Origin: an uncultured Spirochaetaceae bacterium
GTDB lineage: Bacteria > Spirochaetota > Spirochaetia > Sphaerochaetales > Sphaerochaetaceae
Assembly: GCA_944389075.1 (NCBI GenBank)
Contig: CALXLA010000027.1
Coordinates: 1-64,000 of the forward strand
Direction of reading: 5' to 3'
Length of the DNA stretch: 64,000 nt
Part shown: piece after piece, positions 14,664-63,745 of the stretch
Numbering within the stretch: position 1 is the stretch's first letter
Layout of the letters: every line of letters begins with the position of its first letter
The notes under the pieces: generated by a model
Seen by the model: the letters and a program-made list of their open reading frames with translations, nothing else
What the model was told of the DNA's origin: nothing
Databases searched by the model: none
Position numbers and translations under genes: made by a program

Positions 14664-15182
14664 TTATTTCAGCAGATCAAGCAGGGTATATTCTCCCCTT
14701 GGTATGTTTGATAATCTCCTATATTCTCTGATTGCTGACAAAAGGGACTCACAGTCACTGAAGTATGATTTTACGAAATCGTATGTTTTCACATTATGAA
14801 AATGAAGAGTTGTCTTGCAGTATTCGCTGGGCTTCTTTCCAGATGATTTGTAATTTTCGTATTTGCCTTCATTGATGATAATCAGCATTTCTATCTCTGG
14901 AGCTGTCACAATGTTTATGACATCCACCTTATGTTCATATGCTTTGCTCAGCTTGAAATTCTCTTTGCGTGAATCAAGTATTCTTATGACGGAAATCTTT
15001 CCATTAAAGCCTTTCCTGAGATAACGTTCTTCGAAATTCTTAGCGCCCCTGCATCTGATGACTTTCTCATCTAGCATTTCATCACGTGGGAACAAAAGGA
15101 GATTGTTATCCACCAGAATATCGATGATTGCGGATTCTGCGGAACCTTCACATATGCAGGCCTTATATTTAGACAGCTCCAT
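14664..15182 (-). CDS. Toprim/RloB-like partner of AAA ATPase (putative defence effector)
   Basis: A 172-residue protein with features of a compact Toprim-like nuclease domain: an acidic residue after the first strand (ACICEGSAES, Glu12), an Asp at the end of a hydrophobic strand (IRILDSR, Asp70) and a TAPEIEMLI segment resembling the NPxFExW region of RloB-like proteins. Its ATG follows directly on the TGA of the ATPase gene with no intervening base, so translation is coupled. RloA-RloB and PARIS (AriA-AriB) defence pairs have the same design, an AAA15 ATPase plus a Toprim-like partner. Family and activity are inferred; AriB proteins are longer than this one. Confidence 0.6.
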   Translation of the reverse strand: MELSKYKACICEGSAESAIIDILVDNNLLLFPRDEMLDEKVIRCRGAKNFEERYLRKGFNGKISVIRILDSRKENFKLSKAYEHKVDVINIVTAPEIEMLIIINEGKYENYKSSGKKPSEYCKTTLHFHNVKTYDFVKSYFSDCESLLSAIREYRRLSNIPRGEYTLLDLLK

Positions 15183-16340
15183 TCAGGCGTCTCCCTTCAT
15201 GATAGTTTTCCGAAGATTGATATATGCTTCATAGAGAGGAGTGGTTCCTTCTAGGAATCCGCTCTGATACGCATCGCTTTTCTTGATGTCATTCCTGCGG
15301 AGGATATTGCTGAGATTCTCTGCAGTTATGCCACCTCTGTTGCGGACTATATAGATTGAATCGTTCCTGTCATATTCATCCAGCAGCTCAGGATAATGAG
15401 TGGTGAAAATCAGTGAAGCACCATTCCTGTTCAGCTCAGCATCCATGAAAAAGCGCATCATTGTCGTCACTATCTCTTTGTTGAAATGGTTCTCGATTTC
15501 ATCAATCAGGAGATAGCCACCGGTTTGCAGAACTTCCTTCATCATGGAGAAAGCAATGATGCCTTTGATAGTGCCCGATGAAAGATACTGCTCAAGTTCA
15601 GCTGCATTGTTGAGTATGATTTCATTGGAGCCTGTGAATCTGAGATGTATGAAAGTCCTGTCACCATCTTTTTCAAAGCGCAGCTCTTCTACTGTCGGAT
15701 CAAGGAAGCTGATTATCTCAGCCGGTATGCTTTCTGAGAATGGAAGCACGTTCATGTTTGTATATGTCAGAAGGCTATAAATATCCAGTTTGTCACCGGT
15801 TTTCCTGTTATATGCAATGATGAAGCTCACATCGTCAGGAAGATATGCTTCATCGGTTTTCCGTACTGATACAGGTTCAACAGATGAGAAATTCATCAGG
15901 TATTTCCTGGACTTCACGCTGGACAGTGGTTTCATCCTTAACCGTTCGACCTTGATTTTATAGATGTAATCTCCGGGCTTGCTCCTTTCTGCTGCTATTT
16001 CTGTCTCAAGGCAGCAGACATGATTGTCTTTGCTCAGGAAAGTGATTCTGAATACAGCATGCTCTGCATCTCCGATGATGCTTCTTGAAGGTACATGGTT
16101 CAGGCTTTCGCTTCTGAGAATCGCAGCTGCAACCTCTATTGCCTTCAGTATGGAAGTCTTTCCAGATGCATTGATGCCGATGAAAGCATTAGCTGTATTG
16201 AGGTACAGGGAAGGTGTCTGTGAAAGACAGAACAGTATATCTTTATCGTCCTCGCCGACTCTCTGTTGTGCATAGAATGCGATATCAAGCTTTTCCTTGA
16301 ATAATGGCAGTCCTGTTGCCTCTATCCTGAGTATTTTCAA
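15183..16340 (-). CDS. AAA15/OLD-like ATPase of a putative two-gene defence system
   Basis: A 385-residue ABC/SMC-type ATPase: Walker A GINASGKT at 55-62, a long central insertion, Walker B YLLIDEIENHF about residue 280, and the switch-His strand IFTTHYPELL about residue 315. This is the AAA_15/AAA_21 architecture of RloA, AriA and OLD N-terminal domains, which form sensor scaffolds for a nuclease partner. The start is TTG at 16340 with a good GGAGGAAG site, so expression may be low. A palindromic hairpin lies just before that site. It is divergent from the phase-variable restriction gene. Confidence 0.8.
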   Translation of the reverse strand: MKILRIEATGLPLFKEKLDIAFYAQQRVGEDDKDILFCLSQTPSLYLNTANAFIGINASGKTSILKAIEVAAAILRSESLNHVPSRSIIGDAEHAVFRITFLSKDNHVCCLETEIAAERSKPGDYIYKIKVERLRMKPLSSVKSRKYLMNFSSVEPVSVRKTDEAYLPDDVSFIIAYNRKTGDKLDIYSLLTYTNMNVLPFSESIPAEIISFLDPTVEELRFEKDGDRTFIHLRFTGSNEIILNNAAELEQYLSSGTIKGIIAFSMMKEVLQTGGYLLIDEIENHFNKEIVTTMMRFFMDAELNRNGASLIFTTHYPELLDEYDRNDSIYIVRNRGGITAENLSNILRRNDIKKSDAYQSGFLEGTTPLYEAYINLRKTIMKGDA

Positions 16341-16609: not shown

Positions 16610-19600
16610 GTGAGCTTTTACACAATAATTGACAGATATCGTACTTTATCATTGAGCACAGCCGATCAGGGGAATAAATTCGAACGGCTGATGAAAGCCT
16701 TTATTCTTACGAATCCGGAATATAAAGGCGAAGGAATCGATGAAGTCTGGCTTTGGAAGGATTTTCCTTATAGGAGTGATTTCGGTACAGGCCATGATGT
16801 TGGAATCGACCTTGTAGCAGTGACAGCTGCTGGTGAATACTGGGCTGTCCAGTGCAAATGCTACGATGAGAATGCATATATAAGCAAAGCAGCTGTAGAT
16901 ACATTCATAACCACATCTGCGAAATCCTTCCATGATGAAAGCGGGAATGTTTTAAGCTTCTCAAGAAGAATCTGGCTTGATACATCAGGAAAAGGCTTCT
17001 CAAAGAATGCTGAGGACTCTCTCAAGAATCAGAATCCGCCAGTAACCAGGATGGATTTCCATAAGCTTGCCAGCGCGGATGTCGATTGGGACAAGCTTGA
17101 TGAAGGTCTGTTTGGAGCGGATGCAGAGATTGCCAAGTATTCTCCGAGGCCGCATCAGCAGGAAGCAATAGACAAGGCTCATGAGTATTTCATGGATCAT
17201 GATAGGGGTAAGCTCATCATGGCTTGTGGTACCGGTAAGACATATACTTCGCTGAGAATCGCGGAAAATGAAATAAATAATGATTCTTTACGGGGGGGGG
17301 GTATTATTTCTAGCTCCGTCTATTGCTCTTGTAGGGCAGACGCTTAAAGAATGGTCAGCCCAGGCTGAAAAGCCGATTCACGGTATTTGTATTTGTTCAG
17401 ATCCTAAAGTTTCTCAGAAAGTATCAGAAGATGATTCGATAGGCGAATCAGTAATAGACCTAGCACTCCCGGCTTCAACCTCATACAGCGAAATAGAAAA
17501 ACAGATCAGAATCGCACGATTCAATCAGAAGCTAACAGGAGGACTTCTTGTCGTTTTCTCGACATACCAGTCAATAGAAGTCGTCCATGAAGTACAGAAA
17601 CGTTTGTCTGATGAGCTTGTCTTTGATATCTGCATATGCGATGAAGCTCATAGGACAACAGGCGTAACACGTAAAGATGAGGATGCTTCCGCTTTTGTGA
17701 AGATTCATGATGCTGAATATATAAAAGCGAAGAAGCGTCTTTATATGACAGCGACTCCAAGACTTTACAGTGCTGAGAATCAGAAGAAAGCAGCTGAGAG
17801 CGAAGCAATGGTATGGTCAATGGATGATCCTGCCACATATGGCGAGGAAATCTACAGGATAGGTTTTGGTGAAGCTGTGAAGCGCGGGCTTCTTTCTGAC
17901 TACAAGGTACTTGTCCTGACTCTCAATGAGGATGAGATGTCTACAGCTCTTCAGAACGAAATAGCATTGAGAAAGCCAGAAATACCTACAGATGATTCAT
18001 TGAAGCTTATTGGCTGTATAAACGCACTTTCGAAGATAACAAAGGATTCGGAGCTCCTGAATGAAGTAGATCCTGGTCTGATGCATAATGCCATTGCTTT
18101 CTGTCAGAACATAAAAATATCTGAGAAAACAAGGGATATGATGACGATATGCCGTGATGCTTATTATCAGACATTGACTGAAGAGGAACGATCAAGAATC
18201 GTATCAATTGAAGCAAGGCATATAGATGGTGGTATGGGGTCGTTGAAACGTTCTGAAGATCTTCAGTGGCTCAAGGATGTTGATAGGGAATCCAATCAGT
18301 GCCGTATACTGATGAATGTCCGTTGCCTTTCTGAGGGAGTTGATGTTCCTTCCCTTGATGCAGTCCTGTTCCTGTCTGCAAGGAATAGCCAGATTGATGT
18401 TGTCCAGTCTGTTGGACGTGTCATGAGAAGAGCAGAAGGAAAGAAATATGGGTATATCATCATTCCAGTTGTTATTCCGTCTGGTGTTGAGCCTGAGAAA
18501 GCACTTGATGACAATAAGCGCTTTGCGGTTGTTTGGACAGTCCTTCAGGCGCTGAGGGCTCATGATGACAGATTCAATGCGATAGTCAACAAGATTGAGC
18601 TGAATAAGAAACGGCCATCTCAGATTCTTGTGGGCGGTGTCGCCTCGATTCATGATACAGACGCCGGCGACAACGGAATGAGTGATGCTTTCAGGAGTAA
18701 GGGAGCTAAGCAGCTGATGCTTCAGTTCGGAGAACTTCAGAATGCAGTCTATGCGAAGCTTGTAAAGAAAGTCGGAGACAGACGTTACTGGGAGCAGTGG
18801 GCAAAGGATGTTGCAGAGATTGCTGAAAGGCATATTTGCCAGATAAAGAAATTAATATCAGTAGAAGATAGCCAATCTCGGAAATCTTTTGATAAATATC
18901 TGAAAGGACTCAGAAGGAATATCAACCCATCTGTAACAGAAGACGATGCTGTTGAGATGTTAGCCCAGCACTTCATAACACAGCCTGTATTTGAAGCGTT
19001 GTTCGAGGGATATTCATTCGTAGACAACAATGCGATGTCCAAGTCAATGAAAGGCATGGTCAAGATTCTCAATGAGCAGACTCCTAAAGAAGACAATGAG
19101 AAACTTGAGAGATTCTATGAATCTGTCAGGGAAAGGGCGAAGGACATAGATAATGCAGATGGAAAGCAGAAAATCATCATTGAGTTGTATGATAAATTCT
19201 TCAAGACAGCTTTCCCTAAGACTGTTGAGAAGCTTGGTATTGTCTATACTCCTGTAGAAGTCGTTGATTTCATCATCAACAGCGTAGAGGATGTAATGCA
19301 GAAAGAGTTCGGTAGATCTCTTTCTGATGAAAATGTCCATATCCTGGACCCCTTTACAGGAACAGGTACGTTCATTGTCCGTCTTCTTCAGAGTGGGATA
19401 ATAAAGCCGGAGGATATGGCAAGAAAATATAAGAATGAGCTTCATGCCTGTGAGATAGTCCTTCTTGCTTATTACATTGCATCAATCAATATTGAGAATA
19501 CTTATCATGATTTCATAGCGGAACAGGTCAGAAAGCAAAACCAGACGGCTGAAAAAGAAACAGATGACTATGGCTATGAGATTCAGAATGCAGCGGAAGA

Positions 19601-21542
19601 AGAGCCTGCATTTGAAGCAAAGGTCGCATATGATCCATTTGAAGGAATCTGTCTGACTGATACCTTCCAGATGGGGGAGGATAACAATGAGCTTCTTGAA
19701 GAAGTCTTCCCTCAGAATTCTCGAAGAGTAAACAAGTTAAAGAAGACACCAATAACTGTTATTGTTGGGAATCCGCCTTATTCTGTAGGACAGAATTCTG
19801 CAAATGATAATGCGCAGAACGAGCACTATCAATTTCTAGAAGAAAGAATTGCCGAAACATATGCTGCTGGTACTAATGCAACAAATAAGAATTCTCTCTA
19901 TGATTCATACATTAAAGCATTTAGATGGAGCACAGATAGAATTGGAGCTAATAATGGCATAATTGGGTTTATAACTAATTCAGGTTGGCTTATTAGTAAT
20001 GCAGCAGAAGGATTTCGAAAATGTCTAGAAACCGAATTCTCTAAAATATATGTCTTCGATTTGCGGGGTGCAATTAGAGGGAAAAGCGGAGAGGCTGCCA
20101 AACGCGAAGGTCAAAACGTATTCGATATTATGACAGGTGTTGCAATAACTATTCTTGTTAAAGAAAAAGGGTATACAGGTAAAGCTAAGGTAATGTATAA
20201 GCCAATTGATGATTATCTGAAGAGAGATGATAAGCTGAAGCTTTGTACTGAATATCGTTCGGTTCTTGATAGAAAATTCAAGGCTACGACATTGGTTCCT
20301 GATGAACATGGTGGATGGCTAAGAAAAAAGAGTAATAGATTTTCTTCATTCATACCACTTGGTGGTGAGGAAAAAGCATATTTCAATATAAGTTCAAGCG
20401 GTGTTAAAACAAATCGTGATTTATGGGTCTATTCTTTCAATAGAAGGCAACTAGAAGATAGAATATCTGTAGCAGTTGACTTTTTTAATTCCGAAGCTAT
20501 TCGGTTAGCGGATATTGTAACCCCTAAAAGCACACAGCAGTATTTGATGGAGAAATTAAACAATAATCCAGCACTTTTTTCATGGGATTATCCTAGCAGA
20601 ACACGTATATCCAAAGGGCAACGGATAAAATATAATTTAAATTCCATTGTTGAATCGATGTACAGGCCATTTTGCAAAGAGAATTTATATTTTTCAAGAG
20701 ATTTGATTAATACCATTGCTCAAAATGAAAAACTATATCCATATAATGAAAAAAACTTGACTATATGTTGCTCTGGAATAAGTGGGACAAAGGACCACTC
20801 GTGTCTGATTAGTGATTTAGTAACAGATTTGCATTTTGATGGAGATACAAAATGCTATCCATTATATTGGTATAAAGAGATATCTTTGTCACAATTAGAT
20901 CTTTTCTCTGGAGAAGGCATTAAATATGAAAGAAAGGATGGAATAACAGATTTCATTTTTTATCAGGCACAGCAGAAGTATGGGCCAAGAGTGACTAAGG
21001 AGGATATCTTCTATTATGTATATGGAATACTTCATTCAAAGAGCTATATAGAGAAGTTTGCAGATGATCTCAAGATGCAGCTTCCTCGGTTGCCATTGGT
21101 TTCTGAGCCTCAGAAATTTTGGGATTTCAGCAAAGCGGGAAGGATGCTTGCAGATCTTCATCTGAATTATGAGAATGTGCCTGCATATCCTGATGTGATA
21201 GTAGAAGGCGATAAAGGTAACTATATTGTCACAAAGATGCGTAATCCAAAGAATGGCCAGAAAGATACCATTATCTACAATGAAGATATCACCATAAAGA
21301 ATATTCCTGTTAAGGCATATGAATATGTAGTTAACGGAAAGAGTGCTATTGCTTGGATAATGGAGAGGTACCAGGATAAGACAGATAAGGACAGCCAGAT
21401 CAGGAACAATCCTAATGACTGGGGCATAGAGCATGGCAATTCTCGGTATATACTTGATTTGCTGCTGAGTGTCATCAATGTAAGCTGCCAGACTGTTGAT
21501 ATCATCAATAGCCTTCCTGAAGTCGATTGGGATAAGGAGTAA
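16610..21542 (+). CDS. Type ISP restriction-modification enzyme (Mrr nuclease-helicase-methylase), phase-variable, out of frame here
   Basis: One long gene split by a frameshift in a G10 tract (17292-17301). The first frame runs 16610-17347 and the second is open from before the tract to 21542. With one G fewer it would encode about 1643 residues in one chain. Domains in order: Mrr-like nuclease (Asp67, QCK 81-83), SF2 helicase (Walker A ACGTGKT 205-211, VLFLAPSIALVGQT just after the tract, DEAH about 344, TATP about 380, VGRVMRRAEG), coupler, gamma-type adenine methylase (ILDPFTGTGTF about 911, NPPY about 1054) and a C-terminal target recognition domain. This order matches LlaGI/LlaBIII-type single-chain enzymes that translocate along DNA and cut when converging. 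As written it would stop after 245 residues, with no helicase or methylase. The GTG start has a GGGAG site. Confidence 0.92.
17292..17301 (+). repeat. G10 homopolymer tract, frame switch in the restriction gene
   Basis: Ten consecutive G lie between the helicase Walker A region and motif Ia. Deleting one base joins the two frames exactly at ...SLRGG-VLFLAPSIA, a textbook helicase sequence, so G9 (or any length three bases apart) is predicted ON and G10 OFF. Slipped-strand mispairing at such tracts is a well-known switch in restriction genes. Confidence 0.9.
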
Positions 21543-22306: not shown

Positions 22307-23701
22307 TTATTGAGCTGTCGTCTTCCCAAAAAGCTCTTCAGCCGTAATCAGATGGATATTGCTATGGCTTTCTGCAAGCGTTTTCATATCGCTGCCGAAT
22401 CCTGCTTTTGACAGTATGAAGAAGTCCGTTTTGCCAGAGCCGACAAGAAGCTGCTTTCTTGCCTCAAGCTGGGCAAAGACATTTACATGTACAGGGGAAT
22501 TCTGCCATTTGCATTCCCCGATAATCCAGCCGTCATCTGTCTTGCCGAAGAGATCGACCTCCTCGTTCCTTTTCTGTATAGGATTCGGAAAATCAATAGA
22601 GCCAATGGAACTTATCAGCAAATTAGAAGCAGATAGCACATATTCTCTGAAAGATCGTTCAATCTCCTTTGAGACAAAATCATTAAGCTTATTCAGGGCA
22701 TTGCTGAAAGCAGCTTCTCCTCTGCCTCGTTCGATAAGGGAGTAGTAGGGATGGACAAAACGATAGAAGAAAGCAAAGTACCCATCTATGATTTCCCATC
22801 CTTTACCAGTACCGTGTCCTTCGATCTTCTCTCTCTTTGCCACAATCTGCTGGGATGAAAGGGAAGAGAGAGCCATGCTTACATTTGCATAGCTTTGTCC
22901 GGTCTTGCCGCTTATCTTATTGACATCATTTGTTCCTCCAGCTATTTCTTCCAGGATTGCATCATACGTACTTGTTTTCCTGTAAACGCCTTTCATGAAG
23001 AGTTCCGCTTCTGTGAATAATGCACCTCCTGGGGTAAAGAACTCATCTTTGATTGCTTCTGAAATATTGCTATGCCTTGATACGAAGTTAAGGTAATAAG
23101 GAACTCCTCCAGTGATGACATGAGCTGCTGCTATATCATCGATGTTCCATGATGGAAACATTCTGGCGCTTTCTGCTGGAGAGAATGGAAAAAGCTTTAT
23201 CTGTTCTGTCCTTCTTCCATAGAGAGGACTTTGACTGCTTAGGACATTTTCCTCAATAAACCGTCTTGAAGATCCGGAGAGGATAAGAACAAGCTTTGTA
23301 TGTCTGAATACAGTGTCCACATAATGCTGCAATAGACCGATCATTTCAGCATTTGACTCACAGAGATAAGATATTTCATCGATTGCGAAAAAGAATCTTT
23401 CGTTTTCAGCTTTCTTTGCAATTGCATCGAAAATGGAGATGTAGTCAGTAAATGCCACTCCTTCTGTTCCGTATAGAGCCATGGAGGCTGAACGTGACAT
23501 GAGGCGAAGCTGTGTCTCATTGCTTCCATCCTGTATAGCCTCAAAGTAGACCCCGTTCTTTCCTTCAGTAAAGAAATCAATAAGGAATGATTTCCCGACT
23601 CTTCGTCTTCCATATAGGACAATGAATTCAAATTTTCCGCTGTTCCAGATTTTCTCCAGCCTTGCTTTCTCGTTATCCCTGCCAATCAGCCTTTCTTTCA
23701 T
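22307..23701 (-). CDS. ATPase_2 / DUF234 family protein
   Basis: A 464-residue protein with an N-terminal STAND-like ATPase_2 domain (ERLIGRDNEKARLEKIW; Walker A LYGRRRVGKSFLIDFF; Walker B FFAIDEISYL), a winged-helix region (about 235-300) and a C-terminal DUF234 domain with a PD-(D/E)xK-like signature (NEEVDLFGKTDDGWIIGECKW). The family is common in gut bacteria and archaea and its role is unknown. The nuclease-like end and the island context suggest a defence or mobile-element link. No good ribosome-binding site is seen before the ATG. Confidence 0.88.
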   Translation of the reverse strand: MKERLIGRDNEKARLEKIWNSGKFEFIVLYGRRRVGKSFLIDFFTEGKNGVYFEAIQDGSNETQLRLMSRSASMALYGTEGVAFTDYISIFDAIAKKAENERFFFAIDEISYLCESNAEMIGLLQHYVDTVFRHTKLVLILSGSSRRFIEENVLSSQSPLYGRRTEQIKLFPFSPAESARMFPSWNIDDIAAAHVITGGVPYYLNFVSRHSNISEAIKDEFFTPGGALFTEAELFMKGVYRKTSTYDAILEEIAGGTNDVNKISGKTGQSYANVSMALSSLSSQQIVAKREKIEGHGTGKGWEIIDGYFAFFYRFVHPYYSLIERGRGEAAFSNALNKLNDFVSKEIERSFREYVLSASNLLISSIGSIDFPNPIQKRNEEVDLFGKTDDGWIIGECKWQNSPVHVNVFAQLEARKQLLVGSGKTDFFILSKAGFGSDMKTLAESHSNIHLITAEELFGKTTAQ

Positions 23702-23820: not shown

Positions 23821-24687
23821 TTACCATATGATAATCCGATGACGGTTGATTAGCTCTCTGTCTTGTCCGATAAGCTCATCTCTGACAATGAATGCATTGT
23901 CATGCGGTTTGATTCTGAACTCTCCTGAATGGAATTTCCTGTGGCAGGTAGGGCAGAGACAGAGCATATTTGATTTCACATCAGGGCCGCCTTCTGAGAT
24001 AGGAAGAATGTGATGCACATCAGCAGACAGGTATCTCCAGCTATCCACTCTATTCATATCGCTCTTCCAGCCTGTTCTGAGAATGACATCTCCGCAGATC
24101 TGGCAGCGGAAATCATAGAGATCCTTGATTGTCTCTTTTACCGTTGTGCTGCTGTAATATTCGTATCTGGTTCCGCTATGGCTAATCCTGACTTGTCCTC
24201 TCTTTCCTTCAGGAATATCAGGAAGCTCAAGAAGGCGGTCATTGACATCCTTGCTATTCCCAATCCAGGAGTTCCGTATCCATGTCTGTTCTTTCAGGCT
24301 ATCTTCTGGCTGATATTCATTTGCTTCAGCAATCAGTGTATTATCCGCATCTGAAAGATCATGCCTATCAATGCAGTCGAGGAAATAATAGAAGATAATG
24401 CAATAGTCTGGATTCCTGCAAAGCTGATGAAATAATTCTATGATATCAGGCAGCGGCCATCCTTTGAAAAAGCCTTGGTGTTTGCCGTTCAGCCCGAGAT
24501 AACGGTAGATGCCGAAGGATTGGTATCCTTTCGAGCTGCTATCAAGACCAAGTATTTTCTCATCCATTTCCCTTGTTGACATACCTGTGACAAGCCAGTT
24601 GTAGATGACAGCAGCTTTCTGCTTATCGTTATAGCAATTGAATTCACGGCTTCTATGGCTGAAATCAAGTGGAGGAAACTGCTTCAT
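23821..24687 (-). CDS. HNH endonuclease
   Basis: About 288 residues with a C-terminal HNH domain: zinc-binding CQICGD and CPTCHRKFH frame the catalytic stretch DVHHILPISEGGP and NMLCLC. The N-terminal about 180 residues are unrecognised and could recognise DNA or a modified base. It is the last gene of the defence island before the rnf operon. I place the start at 24687 (MKQFPPLDF); the frame stays open to 24774, but that extension is Cys-rich and lacks a ribosome-binding site. It could be an orphan modification-dependent nuclease or a homing-type remnant. Confidence 0.82.
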   Translation of the reverse strand: MKQFPPLDFSHRSREFNCYNDKQKAAVIYNWLVTGMSTREMDEKILGLDSSSKGYQSFGIYRYLGLNGKHQGFFKGWPLPDIIELFHQLCRNPDYCIIFYYFLDCIDRHDLSDADNTLIAEANEYQPEDSLKEQTWIRNSWIGNSKDVNDRLLELPDIPEGKRGQVRISHSGTRYEYYSSTTVKETIKDLYDFRCQICGDVILRTGWKSDMNRVDSWRYLSADVHHILPISEGGPDVKSNMLCLCPTCHRKFHSGEFRIKPHDNAFIVRDELIGQDRELINRHRIIIW

Positions 24688-24875
24688 GATGCAATTGTAG
24701 CAGCCTGCGCATAAGTTTGAAACAATTCTGCTTCGGGAAAGGTCAAAGTATCTGTCTCTGGTGGATGCCAGCAACAGCTGTTATGGGATATCCTAATTGC
24801 CTCTGCTATGCATTTTTCTGCTTTAATTCTGCTTAAAACGGCGGTATCATTAAACTAATTTTTCTGGAGAGACTT

Positions 24876-63715: not shown

Positions 63716-63745
63716 TTGACAAAACTCAACGGGGGGGGGTAGGAT
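63716..63745 (+). promoter_or_regulatory. lipoprotein promoter with poly-G spacer
   Basis: TTGACA (63716-63721) and TAGGAT (63740-63745) are separated by 18 bases, nine of which are the G9 tract directly before the -10. Losing one G would give the optimal 17-base spacing. Slippage would thus tune transcription stepwise. Confidence 0.75.
63731..63739 (+). repeat. G9 homopolymer tract in a promoter spacer
   Basis: Nine consecutive G between the -35 and -10 elements of the lipoprotein gene. With the G10 tract in the restriction gene, it is one of the two longest G runs I see in this window. Confidence 0.9.

Follow-up and report, generated by a model that had tools for sequence, protein, structure and literature searches.

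A coding G-run as a probable on/off switch in a Type ISP restriction–modification gene of an uncultured spirochaete

A Type ISP chain interrupted at a run of ten Gs

Is a restriction–modification (R–M) gene whose reading frame breaks at a homopolymer a dead gene, a misread one, or one that has been switched off? The question is raised by a locus in contig CALXLA010000027.1 (assembly GCA_944389075.1) of an uncultured Spirochaetaceae bacterium, of which we analyzed positions 1–64,000, referred to here as the window. A G10 homopolymer at 17292–17301 on the plus strand splits an upstream frame of 245 codons (GTG at 16610 to TAA at 17347) from a downstream frame of 1420 codons (ATG at 17280 to TAA at 21542), the native sequence of which begins at about 17301. 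Computational removal of one G joins the frames into 1643 codons without a stop, bearing out an earlier note on this DNA that had proposed both the split at G10 and the fusion into a protein of about 1643 residues. We consider it likely that this is a Type ISP R–M gene with a contingency switch in a coding G-run, recorded in the OFF state.

The run lies within the coding frame and its length sets that frame: the gene is in frame at G9, where the length is divisible by three, and out of frame at G10. Given the window's own base statistics, only about 0.002 G-runs of at least 10 are expected per window strand, so a run of this length is not a chance expectation, and no A or T run longer than 7 is present within the window. 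The run falls between helicase motif I (17228–17242) and motif Ia (17301–17345), directly 5′ of the latter. The earlier note was therefore right to place the junction at G10, but not to describe it as running across motif Ia.

The domain content and order agree with the earlier assignment to Type ISP, as do matches to known chains. Upstream of the run, on the same plus strand as all features of the gene, lie an Mrr_cat_2 nuclease domain (16709–17104; Pfam E = 1.5e-40, residues 34–165) carrying a motif of the D...QxK type (GIDLVAV...AVQCK), the N-terminal part of a ResIII match (residues 177–221 of the upstream frame) and the Walker A sequence GTGKT of helicase motif I, which aligns to LlaBIII. 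Downstream, motif Ia (VLFLAPSIALVGQTL) follows directly 3′ of the run, and then come motif II (DEAH, 17640–17651), a coupler domain (18786–19160; PF22240, ISP_coupler, 2.8e-50), methylase motif I (DPFTGTGTF, 19347–19373), methylase motif IV of the N6-adenine type (GNPPYS, 19767–19784) and the C-terminal specificity domain (20379–21461; PF18135, Type_ISP_C, 5.1e-102). The downstream part also matches the rest of ResIII, Helicase_C, Eco57I and N6_Mtase, and the gene contains a further expected motif, QSVGRVMRR. The order Mrr_cat_2, ResIII, Helicase_C, ISP_coupler, Eco57I/N6_Mtase and Type_ISP_C is the Type ISP layout, present as one chain only at an in-frame length.

Relatedness to LlaGI and LlaBIII extends over the full length, with matches in the Protein Data Bank (PDB) on both sides of the run: the downstream part matches LlaGI (5FFJ) and LlaBIII (4XQK), both with E = 0, and the upstream part matches LlaBIII (4XQK) with E = 9.6e-19. 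These matches place the equivalent of the junction in a loop of LlaBIII at residues of about 220–229. By these similarities the gene encodes a Type ISP enzyme akin to LlaGI and LlaBIII, its chain interrupted only by the length of the run. The catalytic motifs GTGKT, DEAH, DPFTGTGTF and NPPY are present; ATP-dependent translocation, cleavage between two head-to-head sites and N6-adenine methylation are predicted. At G10 the reading frame meets a stop about 14 codons past the run, leaving a 245-residue stub that consists of the nuclease and the start of the helicase through Walker A, and nuclease, helicase and methylase activities would presumably be lost together.

Runs at the same junction in related enzymes

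To compare the junction among relatives, we used one scan of genome contigs (80 relatives), followed by scans of the spirochaete class and family and of the Actinomyces genus, family and class. The first scan gave 81 genes including that of the window (385 kb), within which there are four G or C runs of at least 9. All four are at this junction: the window G10, a C9 in a spirochaete metagenome-assembled genome and G10 in two Actinomyces genes. Over all scans the junction could be read on both sides in 109 distinct genes (110 rows, one being a duplicate of the same gene). A G or C run of 7–11 occurs in 12 of these and a run of at most 5 in the other 97; length 6 is found in none. The frames on the two sides of the junction are out of register in 7 of the 12 genes with a run and in 0 of the 97 without one (Fisher P = 2.7e-8, a value that overstates independence because the genes counted are related sequences).

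The individual copies differ in run and in frame. In the same-genus genome G172 the gene (L132, also recorded as L106) has C9 in frame, reading as Pro, and no junction run is present in L133 and L134, which are closest within the family. Among the Actinomyces genes, in-frame copies have G7 (L112) or G10 (L128 and L129), and out-of-frame copies have G9 (L157), G10 with a different flank (L165/L158), G11 (L159 and L163) or G10 with further decay (L161); the related Actinomyces genes L145, L155 and L156 lack a run. L170, a gene from another Actinomycetaceae genome, is out of frame at G9. Thus the Actinomyces runs take lengths of G7, G9, G10 and G11, ON and OFF, within near-identical flanks, a variation that is between species and not within one. 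One such pair is L128 (G10, in frame) and L159 (G11, out of frame), with 97.2% protein identity. Counted across related genomes, tract lengths therefore range over G7–G11 and C9 and include both in-frame and out-of-frame states. The phase-variable reading of the earlier note is supported. It also withstands the refuting condition named in that note, since the relatives do not all carry the same G10 followed by decayed frames. That the run slips within this population is the part of the reading that we still infer.

Outside Actinomycetaceae, none of the actinomycete junctions read contains a run, so the run is not general to the Actinomycetes class. Phage sequences gave only two full-length matches, both distant; plasmids gave many distant relatives, with no junction run in the few whose junction was read, and one relative on a viral contig has none either. 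Other frame changes, in L123, L129, L180, L187, L234 and L235, are away from the junction and were not counted as switches. Some Actinomycetaceae Type ISP genes have long runs elsewhere in the helicase part: G10 with a frame break at about 1496–1505 in L184/L185, and C10 in frame at about 2486–2495 in L181. These are possible second switch sites.

The runs at the junction appear to have arisen separately as the spirochaete G10, the same-genus C9 and the Actinomycetaceae G7–G11. The window gene and L132 are 88.9% identical over the helicase and methylase start used for the tree, yet they have G10 and C9, respectively, at the same place (TTTAC-G10-TATTA at window 17289–17306 versus TTTTA-C9-AGATA). 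The two runs would have been gained independently, or one may perhaps have been inverted in place. By our own grouping, which is a matter of judgment, there are six origins, four at the site (window, L132, the Actinomyces group and L170) and two elsewhere (L181 and L184/L185); the probability that at least four of six would fall by chance in this 12-codon site is about 4e-8. It is fairly probable that the loop between motifs I and Ia is a recurrent, independently evolved switch site in unrelated lineages, one that tolerates Gly or Pro, so that the tract would do no harm in the ON state, and at which the OFF state removes the whole self-contained R–M system at a single step. Under such an arrangement, each return to ON would have to methylate the whole genome before cutting begins.

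Constraint, decay and mobility of the gene

The downstream frame of the window gene has no further lesion in 1420 codons. It is likewise open in the OFF relatives L157, L158, L159 and L170, and open to the end of the contig in L163; an intact downstream frame is thus found in the window and in most OFF relatives, the exception being L161. Between the window gene and L132, the rough ratio of nonsynonymous to synonymous substitution rates (dN/dS) comes to 0.086 for the sequence preceding the run, 0.066 for the helicase, 0.071 for the coupler plus methylase and 0.165 for the specificity region; dS is near saturation, and only the similarity of the values on the two sides of the run is used for this reason. 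Constraint on both sides of the run is similar.

The gene has evidently changed its surroundings. DNA similarity between G172 and the window spans the enzyme gene only and the neighbors differ; therefore, the gene has moved. No same-species copies were found, and G172 is the sole other carrier among the genus genomes searched. L133 and L134 are nearly identical in the nuclease and helicase (dN about 0.02) and diverged in the methylase and specificity regions (dN 0.2–0.3), a pattern that suggests exchange of specificity modules.

Alternative explanations

A broken frame, taken by itself, would also fit a one-off frameshift in a dying gene, with the run incidental to a pseudogene. Many restriction genes are lost like this, and the related OFF copy L161 has decayed. 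We regard this explanation as highly improbable, given the absence of any other lesion in the downstream codons, of any frame break at the junction in the 97 run-less relatives and of any marked difference in constraint across the run, together with the repeated gain of runs there by lineages that are unrelated. The same picture could arise if G10 were a consensus error for a true G9, in which case the assembled cells would be ON and the gene could still be phase-variable. Homopolymer length is commonly misassembled and this genome is a draft in 60 contigs; however, ten Gs can be resolved by short reads, the genome also contains runs of 9, 11 and 12, and out-of-frame lengths are also present in relatives, all of which makes such an error distinctly unlikely. 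Some full-length enzyme might instead always be made from G10 by programmed slippage in the RNA or on the ribosome, so that the dose is tuned rather than switched. The loss of a single base would suffice, and long homopolymers can induce transcriptional slippage. A programmed site would, however, be expected to keep a single length, whereas close relatives vary in length and in-frame lengths are common (Actinomyces G7, and G10 depending on the flank; C9 in the same genus). This pattern fits change at the level of the DNA, and we think programmed slippage very unlikely.

What the OFF state makes is a separate matter. At G10 an internal start could yield the methylase with its specificity domain, so that restriction is toggled and methylation kept. 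This is a live rival, if an unlikely one, because internal starts exist and because HP0669 of Helicobacter pylori, which comprises the methylase and specificity portion of a disrupted Type ISP locus, is an active methylase on its own (PMC3936762). ATG 17280 opens the downstream frame ahead of the run, and ATG 19296, just before methylase motif I, is preceded by a weak GAGG. Conversely, ATG 17280 has no good ribosome site, the internal sites found are weak, and HP0669 was assayed under overexpression in Escherichia coli.

Several points weigh against a contingency switch, whatever its OFF product. The reading comes from assembled sequences; a one-base error in the G10 is possible in a 60-contig draft, and several OFF Actinomyces copies come from near-single-contig genomes in which long-read homopolymer errors are possible. 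One Actinomyces OFF copy, L161, has decayed, and the dN/dS values mostly reflect the time before the present OFF state. Finally, many relatives have a loop rich in Gly, where codon use alone makes a G-run easier to gain; the C9 of L132, which reads as Pro, is not accounted for in this way. With same-site runs apparently gained repeatedly in unrelated bacteria, it seems to us most likely that the gene is not dead but can be switched on and off reversibly.

Proposed mechanism and relation to known systems

In the mechanism we propose, slipped-strand mispairing during replication would lengthen or shorten the tract in the motif I–Ia loop. G9, or any other length divisible by three, would give a complete single-chain enzyme that places N6-methyladenine on its site and cuts unmarked DNA after ATP-driven translocation; other lengths would give the early stop and the nuclease-plus-Walker A stub, and the assembled genome would represent an OFF length. 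The benefit is likely to be bet-hedging, where some cells restrict phage or incoming DNA and carry the methyl mark and others do neither. From this arrangement we infer that the run slips in this population, that methylation is lost when the gene is OFF and that phage or gene expression may be affected.

Most of the phase-variable systems known so far act on a methylase, on a specificity subunit or on a Type IIG enzyme. R–M genes under phase variation are thus familiar in general, and what would be new here is a Type ISP gene under a coding G-run switch; most interesting, in our opinion, is that runs recur at a single loop in lineages so far apart. LlaGI and LlaBIII share with the window gene a single chain in which an Mrr nuclease, helicase, coupler, N6-adenine methylase and C-terminal specificity domain follow in the same order. 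They differ in that the window gene has a G10 in the motif I–Ia loop, and no such switch is described for them in the literature examined. No phase-variable Type ISP enzyme is described in the accessible parts of the literature that names Type ISP and phase variation together; subscription papers and REBASE fell outside this coverage, which makes it weak evidence of novelty.

The closest analogue is Cj0031c of Campylobacter jejuni, which likewise has endonuclease and methylase in one gene and whose phase variation alters methylation and phage restriction (PMC4889913). Cj0031c is a Type IIG enzyme, whereas the Type ISP chain adds an ATP-driven translocase. The H. pylori 26695 locus HP0667–HP0669 (M.HpyAXVIII) resembles the window gene as a frameshift-interrupted Type ISP gene cluster. 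According to the published account, sequence repeats are not the cause of its frameshifts, which hence do not form a slippage switch; overexpressed HP0669, which has both a methylase and a specificity domain, shows methylase activity (PMC3936762).

If the reading is correct, phage restriction, DNA uptake and a methyl mark would all change at once with the gain or loss of one base in the gene for a complete translocating enzyme. This raises the question of how a cell escapes self-cleavage when the one-chain enzyme comes ON while the chromosome is still unmethylated. Recurrence at the same loop in distant phyla would provide a predictable and searchable switch site.

Gene neighborhood and other G-runs in the host genome

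The Type ISP gene is adjoined by an AAA_21 ATPase gene (14664–16340, minus strand) that matches AbiLi in PADLOC (5.4e-33), with a 172-residue partner for which no matches were found. A DUF234 ATPase (22307–23701) and an HNH endonuclease (23821–24774) are also present. Together with the AAA_21/AbiLi pair and the Type ISP gene, this looks like a defense island.

The 2.23-Mb host genome, in 60 contigs, contains 15 G-runs of at least 9, including the G10 of the Type ISP gene; there are only two A or T runs of at least 8 in about 151 kb, comprising the window and stretches around G-runs. Seven of the 15 lie between TTGACA and TANNNT elements (spacing 17–22) ahead of signal-peptide genes, most of which have a lipobox-like end. 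One such promoter is within the window at 63716–63745 (TTGACA, 9 bases, G9, TAGGAT; run at 63731–63739), ahead of a lipoprotein-like open reading frame that extends from about 63780 and starts MKKLLVIALSAMMLFAFTAC. Of 48 genomes of the genus, 33 have the promoter pattern, whereas a reversed control pattern gave zero hits, and near-identical promoter copies within one genome differ only in run length (9 and 10 in G027; 8, 9 and 11 in G363; 8 and 10 in G326). In Treponema pallidum, promoter G-runs of about 7–11 at tprE/G/J/L and tp0126 vary within isolates and control transcription; the tp0126 run lies between the −35 and −10 elements, and a spacing of 17 bases gives the best transcription of that gene (PMC7864442). 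That poly-G system is a promoter rather than a coding switch, and it parallels the promoter family of this host, not the restriction gene. G-runs are likely to be labile in this lineage because the differences in promoter-run length within the genus fit the T. pallidum precedent, and the apparently large poly-G promoter family of the genus would extend Treponema-type phase variation to related spirochaetes.

Several of the remaining runs touch recognizable genes. A G9 at C4:26699–26707 is in frame within a 647-residue HsdS (L010, 3070–5013, minus strand), between the second and third of its three Methylase_S domains, and an overlapping downstream frame is hsdR-like; this locus is likely a specificity-switching Type I system. 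Two family 2 glycosyltransferases are probable phase-variable surface sugar genes, one with a G9 near its C-terminus (L019, C57:72763) and the other with a G11 a few bases before it (L020, C57:87295). Lastly, a G11 at C51:46466–46476 (L018) lies a few bases 5′ of the start codon (ATG) for a DUF362 protein, a position in which it could serve as a ribosome site or interfere with one.

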